Shown: one piece after another, positions 4,427 through 23,425 of the stretch
Position numbering within the stretch: position 1 is the first letter of the stretch
Layout: the number at the start of each line of letters is the position of its first letter
IMG/VR virus record: IMGVR_UViG_3300009156_000081
Coordinates: 1 to 24,688 of that record
Length of the DNA stretch: 24,688 nucleotides
DNA from: a virus
Direction: 5' to 3' (one strand)
Notes under the pieces: model-generated
What the model was told of the DNA's origin: nothing
The model's database searches: none
The model's input: the letters and a program-made list of their open reading frames with translations, nothing else
Program-made: the position numbers and the translations under genes

Positions 4427-4444
4427 TTGAACGAGAGCCAAACG

Positions 4445-5989
4445 ATGATCGAATACGCGAACAGTGCCTACCGAGTTCCGGGAGGCTGGACCAACAGGAT
4501 TCGAACCGCCCCCGAACGAACGTATCAAGCACACCTACGAAGCTGGCTTGTTCCAGACACCGCCGCCAACCGGCGATTCCTTAAGTCCAGTTTCCTTTCA
4601 GCTGAGTTCTCCCCCGCTGCTCACGCTGCAGTCCGCACTGAGCCCGCCATCCGCGATGGCCGTGCGTTCCCCGCCCGCCCTTTGGGCATCCTGCCCCACC
4701 AGCAGGAAGCGCTGGAACTGGCCTACGGGCTGAAATCCTACGCATTCTTCCATGAAATGGGGTCGGGCAAGTCCCGCACCCTGCTTGAACTGTGGAAGGT
4801 GTACTGGCAGGAAGGCCGGATCACTGAGGCTTGGGTGATCTGCCCCAATTCCATCATCGCCAACTGGCATGAGCAAATCAGCATCTGGGCACCTGAACTG
4901 CGTGACGTGATCAGGGTCTACGGCATTCTGAGCCTGTCCGCTGGAAGACTCCCGACCGAGCTCGTCACCCGAGCTCACGACAAGCTTGCTGTCGTCGTCG
5001 ACGAATCCCAGCGAATCAAGAACTCGCAGGCCAAACGAACCAAAGTGATGCAGGAAATCGGCAAGCATGCCGCCTTCCGCACCATCATGACAGGCACCCC
5101 AAATACCAAGGGAATCGAGGACCTCTACAGCCAATACGGCTTCCTCGACCCACAGATAGTCGGCTTCAAGTCCTTCTACTCCTTCCGCAACCGCTACTGC
5201 GTGATGGGCGGCTTCGAAAATAAACAGATCGTCGGATACCAGAACATACCGGAGCTGCTCACTGCCCTCGCCCCCTACACGCACGTCGTGAAGGACCCGG
5301 TCGAACTCCCGCCCCAAGCGCACGAGGACCGTTCGGTCCCGCTTTCGGCCGAGCAGAAGCGACTGTTGCGTGAGTTGAAGGAAATGATGATGACCGAGAT
5401 GGAAGGCGAGAGGCTTTCCGTCACGAACGCCCTGACATATTACACGCGCGGCGCGCAGATTTTGGGCGGGTTCTTCCCTTTGGCTGAGGGTCGAGTGGCA
5501 ATGCTCGACGACAACCCCAAACTGGACGAACTGATCGAAGTAGTAGAAGGCACCGATAAGAAGATAGTCATCTTCTGCCGGTTCATCCCGGAGGCCAAGC
5601 TGATCGAGCGCAAGCTGGAGAAGTACGGCATCGTCCGCCTTGGAAGCGACAGCGAAGATATACAAGGACTGGTCAACCAGTTCCAGACCGACCCCGACAC
5701 CCGGCTATTGGTATCGACCTACGGCATGGGCTCGATCGGCTTCACCTTGACCGCTGGTAAAGTACTGGTCAAGTACTCAGGCACCTTTAACTTCGAGGAC
5801 GAAATACAGAGTGAGAAACGCATCCACCGAATCGGCCAAACCGAAAACACTATGGTTATCCGATTGGTGGCGGATTGTAAGCTGGACCGCCACATTAAAG
5901 CGATCGCCCAAAACAAGCAAACGATGGCAGATTTCGTGTCCTCGTCCTTGCGCGACCCAAAGCAGCTGCTGTCACTTTTGGAGGACTGA
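4445..5989 (+). CDS. SNF2-type DEAD/DEAH-box helicase
   Basis: This is a superfamily 2 ATPase of the SNF2 type that probably moves along or remodels DNA during replication or recombination. ATG 4445 is preferred to the in-frame TTG 4427, because TTG 4427 directly abuts the leader hairpin; GAGAG lies upstream of ATG. The 514-residue product shows a Q-type entry (LPHQQEAL), Walker A HEMGSGKS (103-110), motif Ia region VICPNSIIANW, motif II VVVDESQ (DESQ 186-189), motif III TGTP (216-219), and in the second RecA domain VSTYGMGSIGFTLT and QSEKRIHRIGQ (455-465), the SNF2 signature motif VI with its arginines. It is first in the replication operon. Confidence 0.93.
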   Translation: MIEYANSAYRVPGGWTNRIRTAPERTYQAHLRSWLVPDTAANRRFLKSSFLSAEFSPAAHAAVRTEPAIRDGRAFPARPLGILPHQQEALELAYGLKSYAFFHEMGSGKSRTLLELWKVYWQEGRITEAWVICPNSIIANWHEQISIWAPELRDVIRVYGILSLSAGRLPTELVTRAHDKLAVVVDESQRIKNSQAKRTKVMQEIGKHAAFRTIMTGTPNTKGIEDLYSQYGFLDPQIVGFKSFYSFRNRYCVMGGFENKQIVGYQNIPELLTALAPYTHVVKDPVELPPQAHEDRSVPLSAEQKRLLRELKEMMMTEMEGERLSVTNALTYYTRGAQILGGFFPLAEGRVAMLDDNPKLDELIEVVEGTDKKIVIFCRFIPEAKLIERKLEKYGIVRLGSDSEDIQGLVNQFQTDPDTRLLVSTYGMGSIGFTLTAGKVLVKYSGTFNFEDEIQSEKRIHRIGQTENTMVIRLVADCKLDRHIKAIAQNKQTMADFVSSSLRDPKQLLSLLED

Positions 5990-7506: not shown

Positions 7507-7821
7507 ATGGCCTTTGAGATTAAGGAAAAACGGGGTTCGCTGTTTAAGAACGATAACAAAGAGCGGGAGAATCAACCCGACTTCACTGGTAACATGAAGA
7601 TCGGCGGCAAGGTTTGGCGCGTTGCGGGGTGGAACACCGAATCTAGGGGCGGGACTGAGTACATCAGCCTCAGCATCAGTGATCCGGAAGATTTTAAGCG
7701 GCGTGACGACCCGGCACCCGCGCCTAAGCCTCGACTGACGGACGAAGAGTTTGAGAAGAAGCGTCAGCAGTTCAGGGCCAACCTGAACGACGACTTCACT
7801 GATGATGACATTCCATTCTAA
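7507..7821 (+). CDS. Probable phage single-stranded DNA-binding protein with SSB-type tail
   Basis: ATG 7507 is preceded by GGAG in CTCTGGAGAAGATC. The 104-residue product has a small beta-rich domain (residues 1-62): GSLFKNDNK, PDFTGNMKIGGKVWRVAGW and TEYISLSISDP, a pattern like DUF736-type or OB-fold proteins. A Pro-rich linker (PAPAPKP) and charged helix follow, and the chain ends DDFTDDDIPF. The last six residues, DDDIPF, equal the C-terminal tip of Escherichia coli SSB, which recruits replication and repair partners. The gene sits directly before the polymerase and overlaps it by 1 base. ssDNA binding is inferred from fold pattern, tail and position. Confidence 0.78.
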   Translation: MAFEIKEKRGSLFKNDNKERENQPDFTGNMKIGGKVWRVAGWNTESRGGTEYISLSISDPEDFKRRDDPAPAPKPRLTDEEFEKKRQQFRANLNDDFTDDDIPF

Positions 7822-9614
7822 TGGAACCAATCATCGCCCTCGACACTGAAACCACCGGGCTCGGTCCAACGGACCGGGCTTTCGGCGTGAGTTGGATGCT
7901 GACTAACGCCCCGCCACGATATATTGACATTCGGCAGCAACACCCGGCCGAGTTGCTCGACCTGATCAACTCGACCCGGCACCGAATCGTCTGCCACAAT
8001 GCGTCATTCGATTACCGCATGATGCTCCGAGCGGGCATCAGGCTACCGATCGAACGACTGGATGACACCGTGATCAGGGCAACCCTGATTGACGAACATC
8101 TGATGCACTATTCTCTGGACGGCCTTGGCCAGAAGTATCTGGGCGAGGGCAAGCTGGAGGAGATATACGAAGAGTTGGCGCGCATGTTTGGCGGACGCGC
8201 CACCAAGAATGTCCAAATGCCACGCATCGCCAGCGCCCCGCCTGAAATGGTCCGGCCTTACGCGTGCCGGGATGCGAAGCTCTGCCACAACCTCTGGCAG
8301 TGGCAGGAGCGGGAGATTGAGAGGCAGGGCATCCAAAAGATCGTTGAATTCGAACGGTCACTGATGCCGACAATCATTCGCAACGAAGTGATGGGCATTC
8401 GGGTCGACACCGAAGCGGCTAACAAGGCCGTGAACGGGCTGACCGGGGAGATTAACCTCGCCACTGCCGATATTTACAATAAGGCGGGGAAGAAGTTCAA
8501 TATCGACTCTCCAAAGCAGGTGCGAGAGGTCTTCAACCCGCACAAGGGTATGGACGGCGTTTGGCGTAATGCGCGCGGGTACGTTTTTCCATCCACGCCC
8601 GGGGGAGCTCCGTCGTTCTCGGCTGAAGCTCTGCGGGAAACCGGCGACCCACTGGCCGCCGCGATACTTGCCGCCCGTTCCTTGGTAAAGACCCGGGATA
8701 CGTTCCTCAAGGGGCATATCCTTGGGCGAGAGGTAGGGGGAAGAGTCTATCCGAGCATCCACCAAACCAAAGGAGACAACGGAGGAACTGGTACCGGACG
8801 ATTCAGCTACACCGAACCGGCGATGCAGCAGATTCCGTCCCGCAATAAGCGGGTCGCGGCAATCGTCAAGCCCATCTTCCTACCGGACGAGGGGCAGGTT
8901 TGGGTCGACGCGGATATGCACTCCTTCGAGGTCCGGGTCTTCGCCCATCTGGTGAACAACGCCCGCATCGTTGCGGCGTATCAGGCAAATCCCAGGCTCG
9001 ACTTCCATCAGCACGTGGCGGAATTGACCGGGCTACCACGTGCCGCCGAGTACAGCGGGCAGGCTAACGCCAAGCAACTGAACCTGAGCATGATCTTTAA
9101 CAGCGGCCGGGGTGCAATTGCCGAGAAGATGGGAATGCCGTGGTCGTGGGATTCATTTAGCAAGGGTGGCTCGGAGATACGTTACAAAAAAGCCGGAACG
9201 GCAGCGTGCGATGTGATTGATCGCTATCACCTTGCCATGCCGGGTGTGAAGGACTTGGCGGATAGAGCGTCAAAGATCGCTAGTCAGTACGGATTCGTCG
9301 AGACCCAGTTTGGCCGACGACTCCGGTTCCCTAAGGGGGAAAAGCTGTACAAAGCATCTGGCTTGACCATTCAGGCGACAGCGGCAGATATCAATAAAAT
9401 GAACTGGCTGCTGATTGAGGAGGCCATGGGTGGCGAGGGAAGGCTAGTGCTGAACACGCACGACAGCTACGGCATGTCAATGCCGGAGCACTGGCTTCCT
9501 GTCTGGGAACGTGTCAGGCAGGCCGTGGAAGGTGGATTTTCTTGGTTCAGAGTGCCGATCGTGCTTGACTTGTCGGGCTCTGGGCCAAACTGGTGGGAGT
9601 CACTGAAAAAATGA
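7821..9614 (+). CDS. dpoZ: Family A DNA polymerase with 3'-5' exonuclease, DpoZ-like
   Basis: This replicative polymerase is expected to insert 2-aminoadenine opposite T. The start ATG 7821 overlaps the previous stop (TAATG). Exonuclease motifs: D8-x-E10 in ALDTETTG, HNASFDYR (N60, D64), YACRD (Y147-D151). Polymerase motifs: TGTGRFSYTEPAMQQIP (323-339), motif A DMHSFEVR (D365, E370, R372; family usual DYSQIELR), O-helix AKQLNLSMIFN (K418; family usual AKxxNFGxxYG), motif C HDSY (D548; family usual HDE). The catalytic aspartates are kept, but the Phe, Tyr and Glu of the usual pocket are replaced. At 597 residues it lacks a 5' nuclease domain. Its stop overlaps the PrimPol start. The DpoZ name rests on purZ, mazZ and datZ following it. 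Confidence 0.9.
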   Translation: MEPIIALDTETTGLGPTDRAFGVSWMLTNAPPRYIDIRQQHPAELLDLINSTRHRIVCHNASFDYRMMLRAGIRLPIERLDDTVIRATLIDEHLMHYSLDGLGQKYLGEGKLEEIYEELARMFGGRATKNVQMPRIASAPPEMVRPYACRDAKLCHNLWQWQEREIERQGIQKIVEFERSLMPTIIRNEVMGIRVDTEAANKAVNGLTGEINLATADIYNKAGKKFNIDSPKQVREVFNPHKGMDGVWRNARGYVFPSTPGGAPSFSAEALRETGDPLAAAILAARSLVKTRDTFLKGHILGREVGGRVYPSIHQTKGDNGGTGTGRFSYTEPAMQQIPSRNKRVAAIVKPIFLPDEGQVWVDADMHSFEVRVFAHLVNNARIVAAYQANPRLDFHQHVAELTGLPRAAEYSGQANAKQLNLSMIFNSGRGAIAEKMGMPWSWDSFSKGGSEIRYKKAGTAACDVIDRYHLAMPGVKDLADRASKIASQYGFVETQFGRRLRFPKGEKLYKASGLTIQATAADINKMNWLLIEEAMGGEGRLVLNTHDSYGMSMPEHWLPVWERVRQAVEGGFSWFRVPIVLDLSGSGPNWWESLKK

Positions 9615-11893
9615 TTAACATCGACCTAGAAACTATACGCAAGCTGGATGCTATGCCCCGCAATCAGCGGGTACTGGAAGCAGCCAGATATTACGTGTCT
9701 ATGGGCCAACGCGTAATTCCGCAGATCGGCAAGGCCCCGCAAGTAAAGGAAGCAGACGCGTCCTCCAACTTGGCCACCATCTACGAGTGGTTCGGTCCCG
9801 GGGGACAGTACGAAGGAAAGAACGTAGGGTTGGTCCTTGAAGGGTGCCGGGTATTGGACCTCGACCGGCACGACGGAAAGGACGGGGTCAAATGGCTGGG
9901 GGTGGACGTCAACCAATTGGCATGCCCGCGCGAGGTAACGCCTCGCAACGGGTACCACATCATCATTGCAGACACCGACCTGAAGGGTCGAGGCGACAAG
10001 GGTGTCGATATTCGGACCCGGTTTACGACCTACCCATCGGTGGTTGATGGGATTCCGTACAGGTGGGAAGTCGGGGGCGCTCCCGGTCGTTTGGGAGGGA
10101 GCGCTATCCTTAAGCTGGGGGGTCGCCAAAAGAACACGCCGACCGAGGCATTTTCATCCAAGTTCGACCCGCTGGCCCCGGCGTCATACATCAATTTCCA
10201 TCTGGAACACATCGACCCGGATGCTGATTATGACACGTGGCTGAAAGTGGGTATGGCGATCCACAGTAATGACAGCGGGTATGACTCGCAGAGGGTTTGG
10301 GAAGAGTGGAGCCGGGGAGGGAGCAAGTTCAAGGAAGGGGAATGCGAGGCTAAGTGGGGGACATTTAGCGTCGATCGAGAGAAATCCGTCACTATCCGAT
10401 GGCTGATTACCGAAGCCAAGAAGAATGGGTGTCCGGCGCATGATCACGATAGCATTTATTACCAGAACCCCGGCTCCACTGTCCGAGACCTCAACGAGAA
10501 ATACGGATTGTATAACGCCAAAGGCAAGCCGTACATCGTAAGTGTGAACCATAAGGGTGAGGCATGTTTCTCCACGCCGACTGACTTGGAACACATCCTA
10601 GCGAATAAACCGGTAGTCATCAACGGCAAGGCCGTCAGCGCGGCAAAAGTATGGATGACAAGTCATGAACGAAGAGAAGTACGGGAAATCGGAATGTGGA
10701 TACCGGGGAAGGAGCCCCCGGACTCGCTCAATACCTACACCGGGTTCGCCATCGACGCAGTTGATTGCAACAGCGATGAAGAGATTCGGGACTGGTTGGA
10801 TTTTTGCCTACATGATATCTGTTGCGGCAACCTCAAGTACGCAGAATATCTATGGGACATGCTCGCCAAAAAGATACAGAACCCGCTCGGCCGGATGGGC
10901 ATTTGCCTCGTCCTATTGGGCGGGGAGGGGACCGGCAAAGGGCTGCTCACCGGCACGATCAGCAACATCATCGGGCCGAACCACGCAAAGTCGATCAGTA
11001 GCAGAGATTCTCTGATCGGAGCGTACTCCGGCGACATTATTTCCAACGCAATCTTTGTCGAGGCACACGAAGCATCGTGGGCTGGCAACCATACCGAGGG
11101 CAGCCGGTTGAAGGCCCTGATCACCGAGCCCCGGCTCGACTGGAACGGCAAGTTTAAGCCGTACTGGGAGCAGGACAACAACATCTTCGTCACGCTTACC
11201 ACTAACGACGACTGGGCGGCTCCTGCTGGCATCGACAGCCGCCGCTTCTTCGTGCTTCGCACAGCGGACACGCGCAAGTATGAAACGTCGCATTGGCAAA
11301 AGCTGGTGTCTTTGATCAGCGTCGACAGGTACACCAAGAAGATCAACAATCCGGAATATCTGGGGAAGATCAGGCACTGGCTGGAGAACCGGAAGATCAC
11401 TAATGACTTGTCCCGGGCCATGGACACCGAGTGGGTCATCAAACAACGCAAGGAAACGGCAATCGACAGCCGCGAGGACATGCTACTTGGGTGGGTCCGC
11501 GCCACATTTGGCGAGGAAAATGCATATGGATTTGCGCGCTCTGGTGGGGAAATGATCGCCAAAGTGAAAGTAGGAGACGACGAACGACGGTATGTTAGGA
11601 CAGGGAAGATATCGCAGGATTACCGGGACTACGTTAACAAGCGCGCCAAGAACAGACGTTCCACGTATGACGATGGAACTCTCAACGATAAAATGGCTCT
11701 GCTCGGATTTGAACGAAAGATGGTGCGAAGGCACCGCATATTTGAAGGAGGAAAACCGCTAGCTGATACTTACAGCGACACCAAGACCAGTGTAATGATA
11801 GTGCCCCCGCCCGATGTAATCGAGGCGAACATAACTAAGAATTTCTCACTATTTGCGGAGACATGTGATGACAGCGATGACAGTGATAGTTGA
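9611..11893 (+). CDS. PrimPol-helicase: AEP primase-polymerase, PriCT-2 and SF3-like helicase
   Basis: This fusion protein should prime DNA synthesis and unwind the fork. ATG 9611 overlaps the polymerase stop as ATGA; the in-frame start at 9593 is rejected. It has 760 residues. The N-terminal bifunctional primase-polymerase domain shows V-LDLD (D83, D85) and TPRNGYHII (H116), with GVDIR (131-135). A PriCT-2-like region spans about 200-270 (DPDADYDTWLKVGMAIH, WEEWSRGGSKF). The helicase domain follows, of DUF5906/D5-like type: Walker A GGEGTGKG (437-444), IFVEAHEA (481-488), a TTNDD sensor and the arginine region GIDSRRFFVL. The C-terminus is a short Asp/Ser tail, CDDSDDSDS, coded where purZ begins in another frame. 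Confidence 0.92.
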   Translation: MINIDLETIRKLDAMPRNQRVLEAARYYVSMGQRVIPQIGKAPQVKEADASSNLATIYEWFGPGGQYEGKNVGLVLEGCRVLDLDRHDGKDGVKWLGVDVNQLACPREVTPRNGYHIIIADTDLKGRGDKGVDIRTRFTTYPSVVDGIPYRWEVGGAPGRLGGSAILKLGGRQKNTPTEAFSSKFDPLAPASYINFHLEHIDPDADYDTWLKVGMAIHSNDSGYDSQRVWEEWSRGGSKFKEGECEAKWGTFSVDREKSVTIRWLITEAKKNGCPAHDHDSIYYQNPGSTVRDLNEKYGLYNAKGKPYIVSVNHKGEACFSTPTDLEHILANKPVVINGKAVSAAKVWMTSHERREVREIGMWIPGKEPPDSLNTYTGFAIDAVDCNSDEEIRDWLDFCLHDICCGNLKYAEYLWDMLAKKIQNPLGRMGICLVLLGGEGTGKGLLTGTISNIIGPNHAKSISSRDSLIGAYSGDIISNAIFVEAHEASWAGNHTEGSRLKALITEPRLDWNGKFKPYWEQDNNIFVTLTTNDDWAAPAGIDSRRFFVLRTADTRKYETSHWQKLVSLISVDRYTKKINNPEYLGKIRHWLENRKITNDLSRAMDTEWVIKQRKETAIDSREDMLLGWVRATFGEENAYGFARSGGEMIAKVKVGDDERRYVRTGKISQDYRDYVNKRAKNRRSTYDDGTLNDKMALLGFERKMVRRHRIFEGGKPLADTYSDTKTSVMIVPPPDVIEANITKNFSLFAETCDDSDDSDS

Positions 11894-12962
11894 CCTACAA
11901 TTCGGCAGCACCGGTAAGGGGTTGATTGCCGGGTACCTGAGCCAAAAGAAAGAGTTCGACACAGTGGTATCCGCCAACATGCCAAATGCAGGGCATACAT
12001 TCGTGGATGCGCGCGGCAAGAAGTGGATTAACAAGGTCCTTCCGTCCGGCCTGTACAGCCCCTCGCTCACCTACGTGGGCATCGGACCCGGGGCGGTGTT
12101 CGACCCGGCCCAGCTGGTCAAGGAAATCGACGAAATGCGGGAGCGGATCAACACCGACCCGCAAATCCTTATCCACGAATGCGCCGCCATCCTCCTGCCC
12201 GAACATAAGGAGGCGGAGCAAAAGCTGAACCCGATCGCCAGCACCATGCAAGGGTCCGCCGAAGCCTGCATCCAAAAGATGCGGCGAGAGGGAATCGGGT
12301 CCAATGTGGCTGGCCTGAGCCCAGAATACCTCGGTACTTTCTTCACCAACCGGGGCGAGCCGCTGAGCAGGTTCCTCGTAACCAGCCAACAGTGGTTCGA
12401 TCTGATGCTGCTGTCGGACAACATCTTGTGCGAAGGATCGCAGGGCTACTCGCTCGGCATCAATGCCGGGTTCTACCCATACGCCACCAGCCGGGATTGC
12501 ACGGTCAACCGGCTCCTGTCGGATTGCGCCTTGCCGCCCACCAGCCTGAAAACGGTGGTTGGTACGGCCCGGGTTCATCCGATTCGGGTCGGCAATACCA
12601 ACGGTGGCAATAGTGGCCCCCACTATCGTGATCAAGTCGAAACGAGCTGGTCGGAAATTGGCGTAGAGCCCGAAATGACCACCGTGACCGGCCGGGTCCG
12701 GCGCGTGTTCACCTTCTCGGAAATGCAGGTGCGGGAAGCGATGACCATGAACGCCGTCGACCGGGTCTTCCTCAACTTCTGCAACTATGAACCGGCAGAA
12801 GCGATCAGAGTGGCCAAGATCATTAACGCTTTCGGCAGCGAGGTTTACGCCCGGCGGGGATTGGGGGCGTGGGCCGGTGACTACCATCCCCAAGTCGTGC
12901 GCTACCTTGGGTTTGGCCCCAAGGCTGAGCACATCATGGAAGTCGACGGATACACTGGGTAG
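11868..12962 (+). CDS. purZ: PurZ, dGMP-aspartate ligase (adenylosuccinate synthetase homologue)
   Basis: PurZ joins dGMP and aspartate, the committed step to 2-aminoadenine deoxynucleotides. ATG 11868 is chosen because GGAG lies 8 bases upstream; ATG 11877 is also possible. The product (364 residues) has the PurA fold motifs: FGSTGKGLIAGYL (residues 12-24) at the P-loop, MPNAGHTFV with catalytic His43, a LPSG segment, EGSQGYSLGINAGFYPYATS, and TARVHPIRVGN. In PurA the P-loop reads GDEGKGK with a catalytic Asp; here it is GSTGKG, so Asp is replaced by Ser, a change reported for PurZ enzymes that act on dGMP. It overlaps the PrimPol gene by 26 bases and is followed by mazZ. Confidence 0.95.
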   Translation: MTAMTVIVDLQFGSTGKGLIAGYLSQKKEFDTVVSANMPNAGHTFVDARGKKWINKVLPSGLYSPSLTYVGIGPGAVFDPAQLVKEIDEMRERINTDPQILIHECAAILLPEHKEAEQKLNPIASTMQGSAEACIQKMRREGIGSNVAGLSPEYLGTFFTNRGEPLSRFLVTSQQWFDLMLLSDNILCEGSQGYSLGINAGFYPYATSRDCTVNRLLSDCALPPTSLKTVVGTARVHPIRVGNTNGGNSGPHYRDQVETSWSEIGVEPEMTTVTGRVRRVFTFSEMQVREAMTMNAVDRVFLNFCNYEPAEAIRVAKIINAFGSEVYARRGLGAWAGDYHPQVVRYLGFGPKAEHIMEVDGYTG

Positions 12963-12971
12963 GAGAAGACG

Positions 12972-13286
12972 ATGATCACACTCAAGGAACTGCAGGAAGA
13001 CGTCATTACGTGGGCGGACGGAATCTCTCCGGAACGCTCGCCAAAAGACGCCGTCGTCAAGATGGTGGCTGAGACGTCGGAACTGCTGGATGCTGTCTTG
13101 AACAAGGACAGAATGGCTGTTGAGGGGGAATTGGGCGACTGCCTGATTCTCCTCCTCGACATTGCCAAGATGTACGACGTTGATTTGGTCAAGGCCGGGG
13201 ATATGAAGATGACCATCAACTGGAACCGCAAGTGGGAGAGCGTCAACGGGGTCATCCGCAGGAAGAGGAACGGAGGCCAGCTGTGA
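12972..13286 (+). CDS. mazZ: MazZ, MazG-like dNTP pyrophosphohydrolase
   Basis: The protein is a 104-residue single all-helical MazG-like domain. It shows the metal-binding pattern ExxE (E34-x-x-E37 in AETSELLDAV) and, 15 residues later, ExxD (E53-x-x-D56 in EGELGDCLIL). In Z phages MazZ converts dGTP to dGMP and pyrophosphate, feeding PurZ and trimming the competing pool. ATG 12972 follows the purZ stop by 9 bases with AGGAGA at 12961. Its stop overlaps the datZ start as GTGA, and GGAGG for datZ lies in its 3' end. The general MazG role in nucleotide housekeeping cannot be excluded by sequence alone, but the context argues for MazZ. Confidence 0.9.
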   Translation: MITLKELQEDVITWADGISPERSPKDAVVKMVAETSELLDAVLNKDRMAVEGELGDCLILLLDIAKMYDVDLVKAGDMKMTINWNRKWESVNGVIRRKRNGGQL

Positions 13287-13762
13287 ACATACATGAAAAA
13301 CTCAGGCTGCAAGAGGTAAAGAGGTTCCCAATCTGCCACACTAACAAGGACCAAAGTGTGGCGGAGCACTCGTTTAACGTGGTCCTGATCGCCATGGATT
13401 TGGTCGCAGAGGAAGAGGACACCCGGCTCAAGTTTGAGGTACTGTTGTACGCCCTCGAACATGATATGGATGAAGTGTTCACCGGAGACATACCCTCCGG
13501 GTTCAAGCGCAAGCTGCGCACCGAATGTCCCGCCGTGATCAAGCTGCTCGATGGCGAGAAATTCGTCAACCCAGAGGTAAAGGCCGTCGTGAAGCTGGCC
13601 GACTGGCTGGAGGCCATCTACCACCTGCGCCATTTTGGGGGCAGCAGGCTGGCTGAAGGCATCATCCCCGAAATGCTACAAAACTTCTTTCATGCCGCCA
13701 ATACCAGCGGCGTGAGAGACACCGTCCGACTGAGAGCCTTGGAACTGGAGAAGGTACTATGA
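13283..13762 (+). CDS. datZ: DatZ, HD-domain dATP triphosphohydrolase
   Basis: The 159-residue product is an HD-domain phosphohydrolase of the YfbR-like group. GTG 13283 is used, with GGAGG at 13272-13276; the longer frame from 13232 lies inside mazZ. Metal ligands: H29 in VAEHSFNV, H60-D61 in LEHDMDEV, and D107 in KLADWLEAIY; GDIPSG (68-73) is the substrate loop typical of this group. DatZ removes phosphates from dATP in Z phages so that adenine does not enter DNA. Short length and the operon with purZ and mazZ support DatZ over a general 5'-nucleotidase. The next gene starts in its stop (ATGA). Confidence 0.9.
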   Translation: MNIHEKLRLQEVKRFPICHTNKDQSVAEHSFNVVLIAMDLVAEEEDTRLKFEVLLYALEHDMDEVFTGDIPSGFKRKLRTECPAVIKLLDGEKFVNPEVKAVVKLADWLEAIYHLRHFGGSRLAEGIIPEMLQNFFHAANTSGVRDTVRLRALELEKVL

Positions 13763-14220
13763 GCGCAAGCGTGAAATTTCCGAAGGACCCGATCACTGTG
13801 CCCCTGCCAATCGTCATCCGCGAAGAGCGGGACTTGCGCAAGTACATCACCCGGGCCTTGGAGGGGCTGGCGCACGTGGCCAATATTGAGGCGCACGAAA
13901 CGGCGGCCGGGATACCTGATATGTCCATCTTCATGGACGGCCGCGACATTTGGGTCGAGCTCAAGATTCTGAGTGATCGGAAGCCCCCCAAAATGCGCCC
14001 CACCCAAAAGAGGTGGCACCGGGACCGTTGGGCATACGGCGGATTGTCATGGGTAATCGTCTATGACGTTGACGACCATGTTCTGCTGGTTATCCCGGGG
14101 CACACGGCGGCCACTCTAGGCCCGCGAGTCGTGTCGTGGCGAGAGAGCGGAGTGGTCCGGAATACCGACGAAATCGTCGACGTCATCAGAAGCATGGTCA
14201 AGAGGACTCGAAATGCGTAG
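13759..14220 (+). CDS. VRR-NUC-like PD-(D/E)xK nuclease, 153 aa
   Basis: ATG 13759 overlaps the datZ stop as ATGA. Residues 40-100 hold the nuclease signature: E43/E46 region, GIPDMSIF (Asp54), 12 residues, then VELK (Glu67, Lys69), and a downstream QKRWHRDR (Gln83) followed by a SWVIVY strand. GxPD-x12-ExK with a downstream Gln matches the VRR-NUC family, known from phage nucleases and from FAN1-type structure-specific enzymes. It may resolve branched replication intermediates. Position immediately behind datZ puts it in the Z operon, and it presumably acts on Z-containing DNA. Function is inferred from motif only. Confidence 0.82.
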   Translation: MSASVKFPKDPITVPLPIVIREERDLRKYITRALEGLAHVANIEAHETAAGIPDMSIFMDGRDIWVELKILSDRKPPKMRPTQKRWHRDRWAYGGLSWVIVYDVDDHVLLVIPGHTAATLGPRVVSWRESGVVRNTDEIVDVIRSMVKRTRNA

Positions 14221-21915: not shown

Positions 21916-22272
21916 TTATTTGCCCTTAGACTTAAGGACTTTTTCTGCTACGTTGTATTCCGCGCGCTTGAGCGCCCGGGCCTTTGCCGCTGCACTGATG
22001 GGAAGGCCTTTAGCCTTACGGATAGCGTAGTCGGCGTTTTGAGCACCGGCCATAAGGCCCTGATTAGCGTGAGCCGCAGCTTCCACGGCAGGGGCAAAAC
22101 CCCTGGAGGTTTCGGCATTTCCTATGGCCTGTTTAGCAGCCCGCTTAGCGTCATTAGCAACGTATGCCGGAGATACCTCTACACCGGCCTCGTCGTAAAT
22201 CTTGCCCTTACGCACGGCGTAGTTGGAGCCCCATTTCCCGGCACCTGAGATGAAGCCTTCTTTACCGGCCAT
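21916..22272 (-). CDS. Small basic helical protein, 118 aa
   Basis: ATG 22272-22270 overlaps the end of the S74-domain gene by 11 bases, with AAGGAGAAGG upstream in that gene. The product is Lys/Ala-rich: a Gly-rich start (AGKEGFISGAGKWGSNYAV), then helices with SPAYVANDAKRAAKQAIGNA, VEAAAHANQGLM, AAAKARALKRAEYNVAEKVLK. The net charge is positive, which suits contact with packaged DNA. No family recognised. A virion role is inferred from its place in the structural operon. Confidence 0.74.
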   Translation of the reverse strand: MAGKEGFISGAGKWGSNYAVRKGKIYDEAGVEVSPAYVANDAKRAAKQAIGNAETSRGFAPAVEAAAHANQGLMAGAQNADYAIRKAKGLPISAAAKARALKRAEYNVAEKVLKSKGK

Positions 22273-23425
22273 TTGCCTTCTCCTTCGCTAGATGGCGGAA
22301 CGCGCCCAGCAGGAGGGCGGTAAACGCTTCGTAGTCCACCATCAAGTACCCTTGGTCTCCCGAACGGACCAGATGTGGGAACTCTTTGGCCACTTCCTGA
22401 GCAATCAGGCCAGCGGCACGTTGCCCGCTTGGCCACACGAAGGAATGGGGCTGAATCCGCTGCATCGCGTTGTACGCGTCCTCGTCCGGAATGACGGTGA
22501 TGCGATCCTTGAGGTCGGCATCCGAATACAGGTACCCGCCTGCTGCGCCGCCAACGGCAGCGCCTGCTTGCGGCTGGCCAAAATAGGTACCGACTGCGGC
22601 ACCGGCAAGGGCTCCCCAACCTGAACCCTGTGCCTGACGGCGTGCTGCACGGTCAGTTGCCTGCTGAACCTGAGCAGCATACTGGCTCTGCGCCGCGCCC
22701 ATCATGTCTGCACCCGGCGATCCTTGAGACGTGCCATAGCCTTGATAGCTCGGCATATATGCGCCCCACGAACCGGCCGTAAGGTCTTGCATCTGGCCCG
22801 CCGTTTGATACGGCATCATATATTCCTGCAAGGATTGTGCATTCCTTTGCTGTTGGCCCTGCATCTGAGTCTGATAATTAGCGCGAGCTTCCGCGCCGCC
22901 AGCTAACATGCCTTCCAGCTGGGCCTTAGCGTTAACGTCTCCTTGCGACGTCAGCAGATTCTGGTATGCACGGTTGTAAGCCTCGCTACCGGGAACTAGG
23001 CCCTGTAGCCGAAGCTTTGTTTCCATCTGCTGCTTGTCGATTTGCTGCTGGGGAGTAACCCGCGCCAGCAGGTTTTGGGTAAACATCTTGGAATAAGCAT
23101 CCCCAGTCTTCGAATCGTACTCCGTAGCACCGGAAACAGTTTTAAATGGATCGCGGGTATTCAGCTTGGAAAGCTGGCCCATCTGCTGACCCTGCTGCGC
23201 AATAGCCTGGTCTTGAATGGCTTTGATGCGCGGGTCTAAAGTTTCCTTTTGAATCCACCTTCCGGTAGTGGGATCAAGGGCCCAGTCAACGCTACCCAAA
23301 AGACCAATTTGGGTAGGCCGATTGGCAATAGTGTTCTGCTGGTTCGCCTGCTTGTCTATGTCCGCCTGCTGGCGAGCAAGAGCAGCGTAATCAGGAGGGG
23401 GAGTCGAACCGCCGCTGGGGCCCAT
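22262..23425 (-). CDS. Virion protein with C-terminal S74-type chaperone domain, 387 aa
   Basis: ATG 23425-23423 has GAGG upstream and lies 2 bases after the GNAT gene stop. Residues 1-260 are Gln-rich and helical, with LDPRIKAIQDQAIAQQGQQM, VTPQQQIDKQQMETKLRLQG and GQQQRNAQSLQEYMMPYQT. Residues 265-298 form a glycine-rich zipper (GWGALAGAAVGTYFG, GAAVGGAAGGY). Residues 301-380 fit the intramolecular chaperone (Peptidase_S74) pattern: SDADLK with Ser301 and Lys306, RIQPHSFVW, AAGLIAQEVAKEFPHLV, VDYEAFTALLLGAF. The Ser-x4-Lys spacing equals the self-cleavage dyad of endosialidase-type spikes, and cleavage would fall before Ser301. It is short for a spike and may be an internal or tail protein. 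Confidence 0.85.
   Translation of the reverse strand: MGPSGGSTPPPDYAALARQQADIDKQANQQNTIANRPTQIGLLGSVDWALDPTTGRWIQKETLDPRIKAIQDQAIAQQGQQMGQLSKLNTRDPFKTVSGATEYDSKTGDAYSKMFTQNLLARVTPQQQIDKQQMETKLRLQGLVPGSEAYNRAYQNLLTSQGDVNAKAQLEGMLAGGAEARANYQTQMQGQQQRNAQSLQEYMMPYQTAGQMQDLTAGSWGAYMPSYQGYGTSQGSPGADMMGAAQSQYAAQVQQATDRAARRQAQGSGWGALAGAAVGTYFGQPQAGAAVGGAAGGYLYSDADLKDRITVIPDEDAYNAMQRIQPHSFVWPSGQRAAGLIAQEVAKEFPHLVRSGDQGYLMVDYEAFTALLLGAFRHLAKEKANGR

Follow-up and report, generated by a model that had tools for sequence, protein, structure and literature searches.

The gene at positions 11,868 to 12,962 of the window (the whole stretch of DNA analysed, i.e. the 24,688 nucleotides of IMG/VR virus record IMGVR_UViG_3300009156_000081) very probably encodes a phiVC8-type PurZ, from a podovirus-like phage of the kind whose DNA carries 2-aminoadenine (Z) in the place of adenine, a base that PurZ helps such viruses to make, as judged from sequence comparisons and a structural model; we infer the activity and the Z DNA from characterised relatives. 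The enzyme itself is known and, apart from its sequence being new, ordinary; its Ser in place of the catalytic Asp of PurA is a known, family-wide hallmark that has already been described and is not special to this genome. Knowledge of PurZ is unchanged by the gene; what the record contributes is a further complete Z-cassette, found in the sequence of an uncultivated phage, in which the Ser-for-Asp swap also holds. In annotation, purZ and not purA is the right name for this gene, and the virus is predicted to carry 2-aminoadenine DNA.

The purZ gene and its P-loop

The predicted features of the replication module and the cassette are given below with their window positions, strand and supporting matches.

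4427..5989, + strand: superfamily II DNA/RNA helicase, upstream member of the replication module (Pfam SNF2-rel_dom and Helicase_C; PHROG 62)
7507..7821, + strand: probable single-stranded DNA-binding protein (PHROG 7364 and 18154)
7821..9614, + strand: dpoZ, family A DNA polymerase with 3'-5' exonuclease, phiVC8-like aminoadenine-incorporating type (NCBIfam NF038380)
9611..11893, + strand: primase/helicase with PriCT-2 and DUF5906, likely start ATG 9611 (Pfam PriCT_2, E 5.8e-21, and DUF5906; PHROG 1156, DNA primase)
11868..12962, + strand: purZ, predicted 2-amino-adenylosuccinate (dSMP) synthetase, 364 aa (phmmer, PHROG, NCBIfam, residue map, fold match)
12972..13286, + strand: mazZ, MazZ-1 type MazG-like pyrophosphohydrolase, expected to convert dGTP to dGMP (Pfam MazG, 28.2 bits, cut-off 22)
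13283..13762, + strand: datZ, predicted HD-domain dATP triphosphohydrolase, with a likely GTG start codon at 13283, so that it overlaps the stop of mazZ (PHROG 7076, E 3.6e-27)
13759..14220, + strand: VRR-NUC-like nuclease/resolvase, syntenic in BUCT555, ZP6 and phiVC8 (PHROG 2165 and 5702; alignment with BUCT555, phiVC8 and ZP6)

The purZ frame starts with the ATG at 11868 and runs uninterrupted over 364 aa until its stop codon, 12960-12962; a GGAG stands seven bases 5' of the ATG. The P-loop region of the protein reads Q11-F12-G13-S14-T15-G16-K17-G18. In the residue map, for which the protein was aligned with E. coli K-12 PurA and 15 further sequences, Ser14 (codon AGC, 11907-11909) falls on the catalytic Asp13 of E. 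coli PurA, so that GSTGKG replaces GDEGKG as the earlier note had read from the sequence. Further pairs between the window protein and E. coli PurA are Thr15/Glu14, Lys17/Lys16, His43/His41, Thr126/Thr129, Arg140/Arg143, Gln192/Gln224, Thr207/Thr239 and Arg278/Arg305; the catalytic His43 (in NAGHT) and the TARVxxxRVG loop (TARVHPIRVG, residues 233-242), both claimed as kept, are indeed in place. The same note had asked whether the Asp might be kept elsewhere in the P-loop; the alignment places no Asp or Glu elsewhere in this loop, and the closest Asp, D9, lies where strand 1 ends.

Asp9 (11892-11894), five residues ahead of Ser14, is itself invariant across the aligned phage PurZ sequences; E. 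coli PurA and the PurZ0 rows of the alignment have Gly there, and the PurZ literature consulted assigns no role to this Asp.

Ser14 is invariant in 11/11 aligned phage PurZ sequences, and in all 33 window and contig sequences of a set that was partly fetched with the GSTGKG pattern and is biased to Ser. Unbiased support comes from the tblastn matches to named phages, from loci fetched with non-P-loop patterns, and from a 2026 survey in which 147/147 (100%) phage PurZ/PurZ0 sequences carried Ser, with 99% conservation of Asp13 in the PurA group (PMC12884076). The serine is not a matter of chance.

Family assignment and the Z-genome cassette

The assignment of the gene to PurZ, made in the earlier note from the sequence, is borne out by phmmer, PHROG, fold, tree and cassette alike. 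In phmmer searches against the PDB, the first match was phiVC8 PurZ (6FM1 and kin; E 3.7e-87) and the second S-2L PurZ (7ODX; E 2.9e-61), compared with only 1.1e-25 for the best PurA. The protein matched PHROG 1211 ('2-aminooxy adenylosuccinate synthetase'; E 1.8e-78), the Pfam adenylosuccinate synthetase fold, and the NCBIfam PurZ model NF038379 over the full model length (E 6.6e-89) with 298 bits, 2 short of the curated cut-off of 300. The best score with a PurA-type equivalog model was 134 bits; TIGR00184 (purA) gave 130.7 bits against a cut-off of 395.55, and the catalytic Asp13 is lost as well.

The AlphaFold model (pLDDT 88.9, pTM 0.89; input, the 33 window and contig sequences) superimposed on phiVC8 PurZ 6FM1 with Z 49.7 and an rmsd of 1.8 Å over 339 residues; Z values were 49.7-49.8 for 6FM1 and 6TNH and 46.8 for S-2L PurZ (7ODX), against 38.8 for archaeal PurA, 38.0 for PurZ0 (7VF6) and 31-36 for E. 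coli PurA. Foldseek and VIA-align likewise gave phiVC8 and S-2L PurZ as best matches to the model. In the tree, the deeper forks of which are weakly supported, the protein falls within phage PurZ, where its companions are BUCT555 and L002; E. coli PurA and PurZ0 stand separately.

The window, a 24.7-kb fragment, carries the rest of the known Z-genome cassette, and the gene order is the same as in BUCT555, phiVC8 and ZP6. The polymerase scored 833 bits with NF038380 (cut-off 500); its L422, F426 and G514 correspond to L455, F459 and G548 of phiVC8, and the insertions of the phiVC8 clade are present (reference residues and insertions from PMC8599892). MazZ keeps counterparts of S-2L K31, E35, E38, E50, D53, I56, D60, N80 and R83, which include the metal ligands (E35, E38, E50, D53) and guanine-reading residues (I56, D60) of the S-2L enzyme (PMC8342488); these residues and identities of 50% to BUCT555 and 34% to S-2L MazZ, and of only 19-25% to the MazZ-2 of phiVC8 and ZP6, assign it to the MazZ-1 type. 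In DatZ, the HD residues and the equivalents of R19, I22, Q29, A32 and K81 are kept, with W20 replaced by Phe and P79 by Gly (reference residues from PMC8065100).

In the window and in BUCT555, a DpoZ/primase module like that of phiVC8 is accompanied by an S-2L-like MazZ-1, at the place where phiVC8 and ZP6 have MazZ-2; the dGTPase slot thus appears to have been exchanged between lineages. Outside the cassette, 22262-23425 (- strand) encodes a tail-fibre-like protein whose C-terminal domain is a peptidase S74 intramolecular chaperone.

Substrate prediction, proposed pathway and other readings

The predicted use of dGMP is supported by comparison with S-2L PurZ, which was crystallised with dGMP and for which the contact residues are listed in PMC8342488. 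The alignment gives identical counterparts for the contacts G22, S23, N49, A50, T132, R146, Q190 and T205, and also for R240, V241, T273-T276 and R280; in window numbering, the dGMP and Asp contacts and the catalytic His that are kept comprise H43, N40, T126, R140, Q192, T207, R240, V241, T271-T274 and R278. Changes in this pocket are Y21 to Phe (as in phiVC8) and G130 and C204 to Ala. In the ATP pocket, S-2L N305 and F306 have identical counterparts and Q308 corresponds to an Asn that phiVC8 also has, so that N303/F304/N306 of the window protein equal the N/F/N of phiVC8; the E. coli PurA equivalents are T330, K331 and D333, and the GTP-specifying TKxD of PurA is replaced by NFCN. In S-2L PurZ, Ser23 adjoins the guanine 2-amino group at 3.7 Å from the nitrogen, a gap too long for a firm hydrogen bond, with Ser being polar and roomier than Asp, and V241 works against the ribose 2'-OH; known PurZ relatives take dGMP and Asp as substrates together with ATP or dATP (PMC8342488). 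This structure (Ser23, 3.7 Å) is consistent with the view that, once the Asp is lost, there is space for the 2-amino group of dGMP. The substrate predicted from the residue, dGMP, is a sound prediction, but the Ser alone does not fix the substrate, because PurZ0 (GSEAKG) has it too. For this reason the dGMP prediction rests on the whole pocket (N303/F304/N306, V241) together with the DpoZ, MazZ and DatZ neighbours.

In the proposed pathway, MazZ would convert dGTP to dGMP, as S-2L MazZ does, and PurZ would form dSMP from dGMP and aspartate, at the expense of ATP or dATP, as in phiVC8 and S-2L, whose pocket is conserved here; Ser14 in place of the catalytic Asp of PurA would let the guanine 2-amino group fit without steric or polar conflict. 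Host enzymes would convert dSMP to dZMP and on to dZTP, a route that is cited in PMC8342488 as published for phiVC8 with V. cholerae enzymes. DatZ is expected to destroy dATP, and DpoZ, a family member by its sequence, would place Z opposite T.

A phage-borne PurA that acts on IMP with GTP and supplies adenine nucleotides, its Ser a product of incidental drift, would be in keeping with the Pfam adenylosuccinate synthetase fold and with the catalytic His and Arg of the window protein, and some phages do carry a PurA with the Asp kept (e.g. LR756501); this reading is nevertheless highly improbable, given a score of 131 bits against a purA cut-off of 396, the loss of both Asp13 and TKxD (NFCN in the window), the position of the protein within PurZ in the tree, and neighbouring DpoZ, MazZ and DatZ that would be without a role. 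There is hardly any probability for a PurZ0-type enzyme (of the Wayne/Archimedes kind), with other nucleotide cofactor use and partners: the loop motif of PurZ0 is GSEAKG, not GSTGKG, the N/F/N pocket is absent from it, identity is about 30% compared with 43-56% to the closest PurZ, and the published PurZ0 partners are DutZ and DmtZ (PMC12884076), whereas the window has DatZ and MazZ-1; what the two have in common is the same Ser and the same overall fold (7VF6, Z 38.0). The full-length open frame, the complete set of catalytic positions and the complete cassette make a decayed or inactive PurZ relic just as scarcely credible, for which the only point is the score slightly below the NCBIfam cut-off. 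A prophage in a bacterial genome was also considered and set aside; the window is a free-standing virus record.

The points counted against the preferred reading, a phiVC8-type PurZ, are the 2 bits lacking in the NCBIfam score, the changes of S-2L Q308 to Asn and of G130 and C204 to Ala, and the two DatZ substitutions. It is improbable, if somewhat less so than a phage PurA, that substrate detail differs from that of the relatives, with Phe and Gly at W20 and P79 of DatZ and a PurZ of relaxed 2'-deoxy selectivity leading to partial replacement of adenine.

Distribution among viruses and likeness to known systems

With tblastn, matches were found in 206 phage records, which include PurZ, PurZ0 and some PurA-type homologues. 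An alignment-based scan of IMG/VR gave at least 374 related places on viral contigs, of which 80 loci were kept; the scan used the GSTGKG pattern, by which its Ser counts are biased, and they were left out as evidence. Ser among these 80 loci, partly fetched with that pattern, was rejected as an independent argument. DpoZ was present in 61 of the 62 related loci with at least 4.5 kb upstream, and DatZ in 70 and a MazZ in 63 of the 77 with at least 1.5 kb downstream.

Related genes were also noted in two other viruses. IMG/VR contig 3300033696_000004 (119,931 bp) encodes a GSTGKG PurZ (locus coordinates L065:4917-5987) with a radical-SAM protein directly upstream, and no DpoZ, DatZ or MazZ was detected within about 5 kb of it. 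Flavobacterium phage MaF61 (PQ858689.1, 168 kb; ORF141 and ORF149, locus coordinates L104:18052-19395 and L104:29736-31091) encodes a PurA-family protein that has diverged very far, in which GSSGKG puts Ser at the Asp13 position and the nucleotide pocket is a PurZ-like N/F/N; an adenylosuccinate lyase (Lyase_1 and ASL_C domains) and a ribonucleotide reductase are also encoded by the phage itself. The MaF61 protein, whose place in the tree is unsure because of its long branch, may be a remote PurZ whose phage also encodes the second step; known Z-phages have that step supplied by the host.

Among named systems, phiVC8 PurZ (6FM1/6FKO/6TNH) has the GSTGKG P-loop, the dGMP pocket, the N/F/N ATP pocket and the fold in common with the window protein, within the same DpoZ-primase-PurZ-MazZ-DatZ order; it is 43-45% identical and has 343 aa compared with 364 aa, the window protein being longer in its C-terminal part and carrying a short insertion behind V241, and phiVC8 carries MazZ-2 rather than MazZ-1. 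The PurZ of Stenotrophomonas phage BUCT555 (MW291508) is 56% identical, with the same gene order and a MazZ-1-type neighbour; its primase counterpart is annotated as 'integrase', and its MazZ, DatZ and DpoZ are only 50-62% identical to those of the window; BUCT555 is a different phage species. Cyanophage S-2L PurZ (7ODX) has the same active-site residues and also MazZ-1 and DatZ 3' of purZ, but is 36-39% identical (structure alignments), and S-2L has a PrimPol and no DpoZ. E. coli PurA shares the fold and the catalytic His, Arg, Gln and Thr, and differs in Asp13 (Ser in the window) and TKxD (NFCN in the window), with the window protein scoring far under the PurA cut-off.
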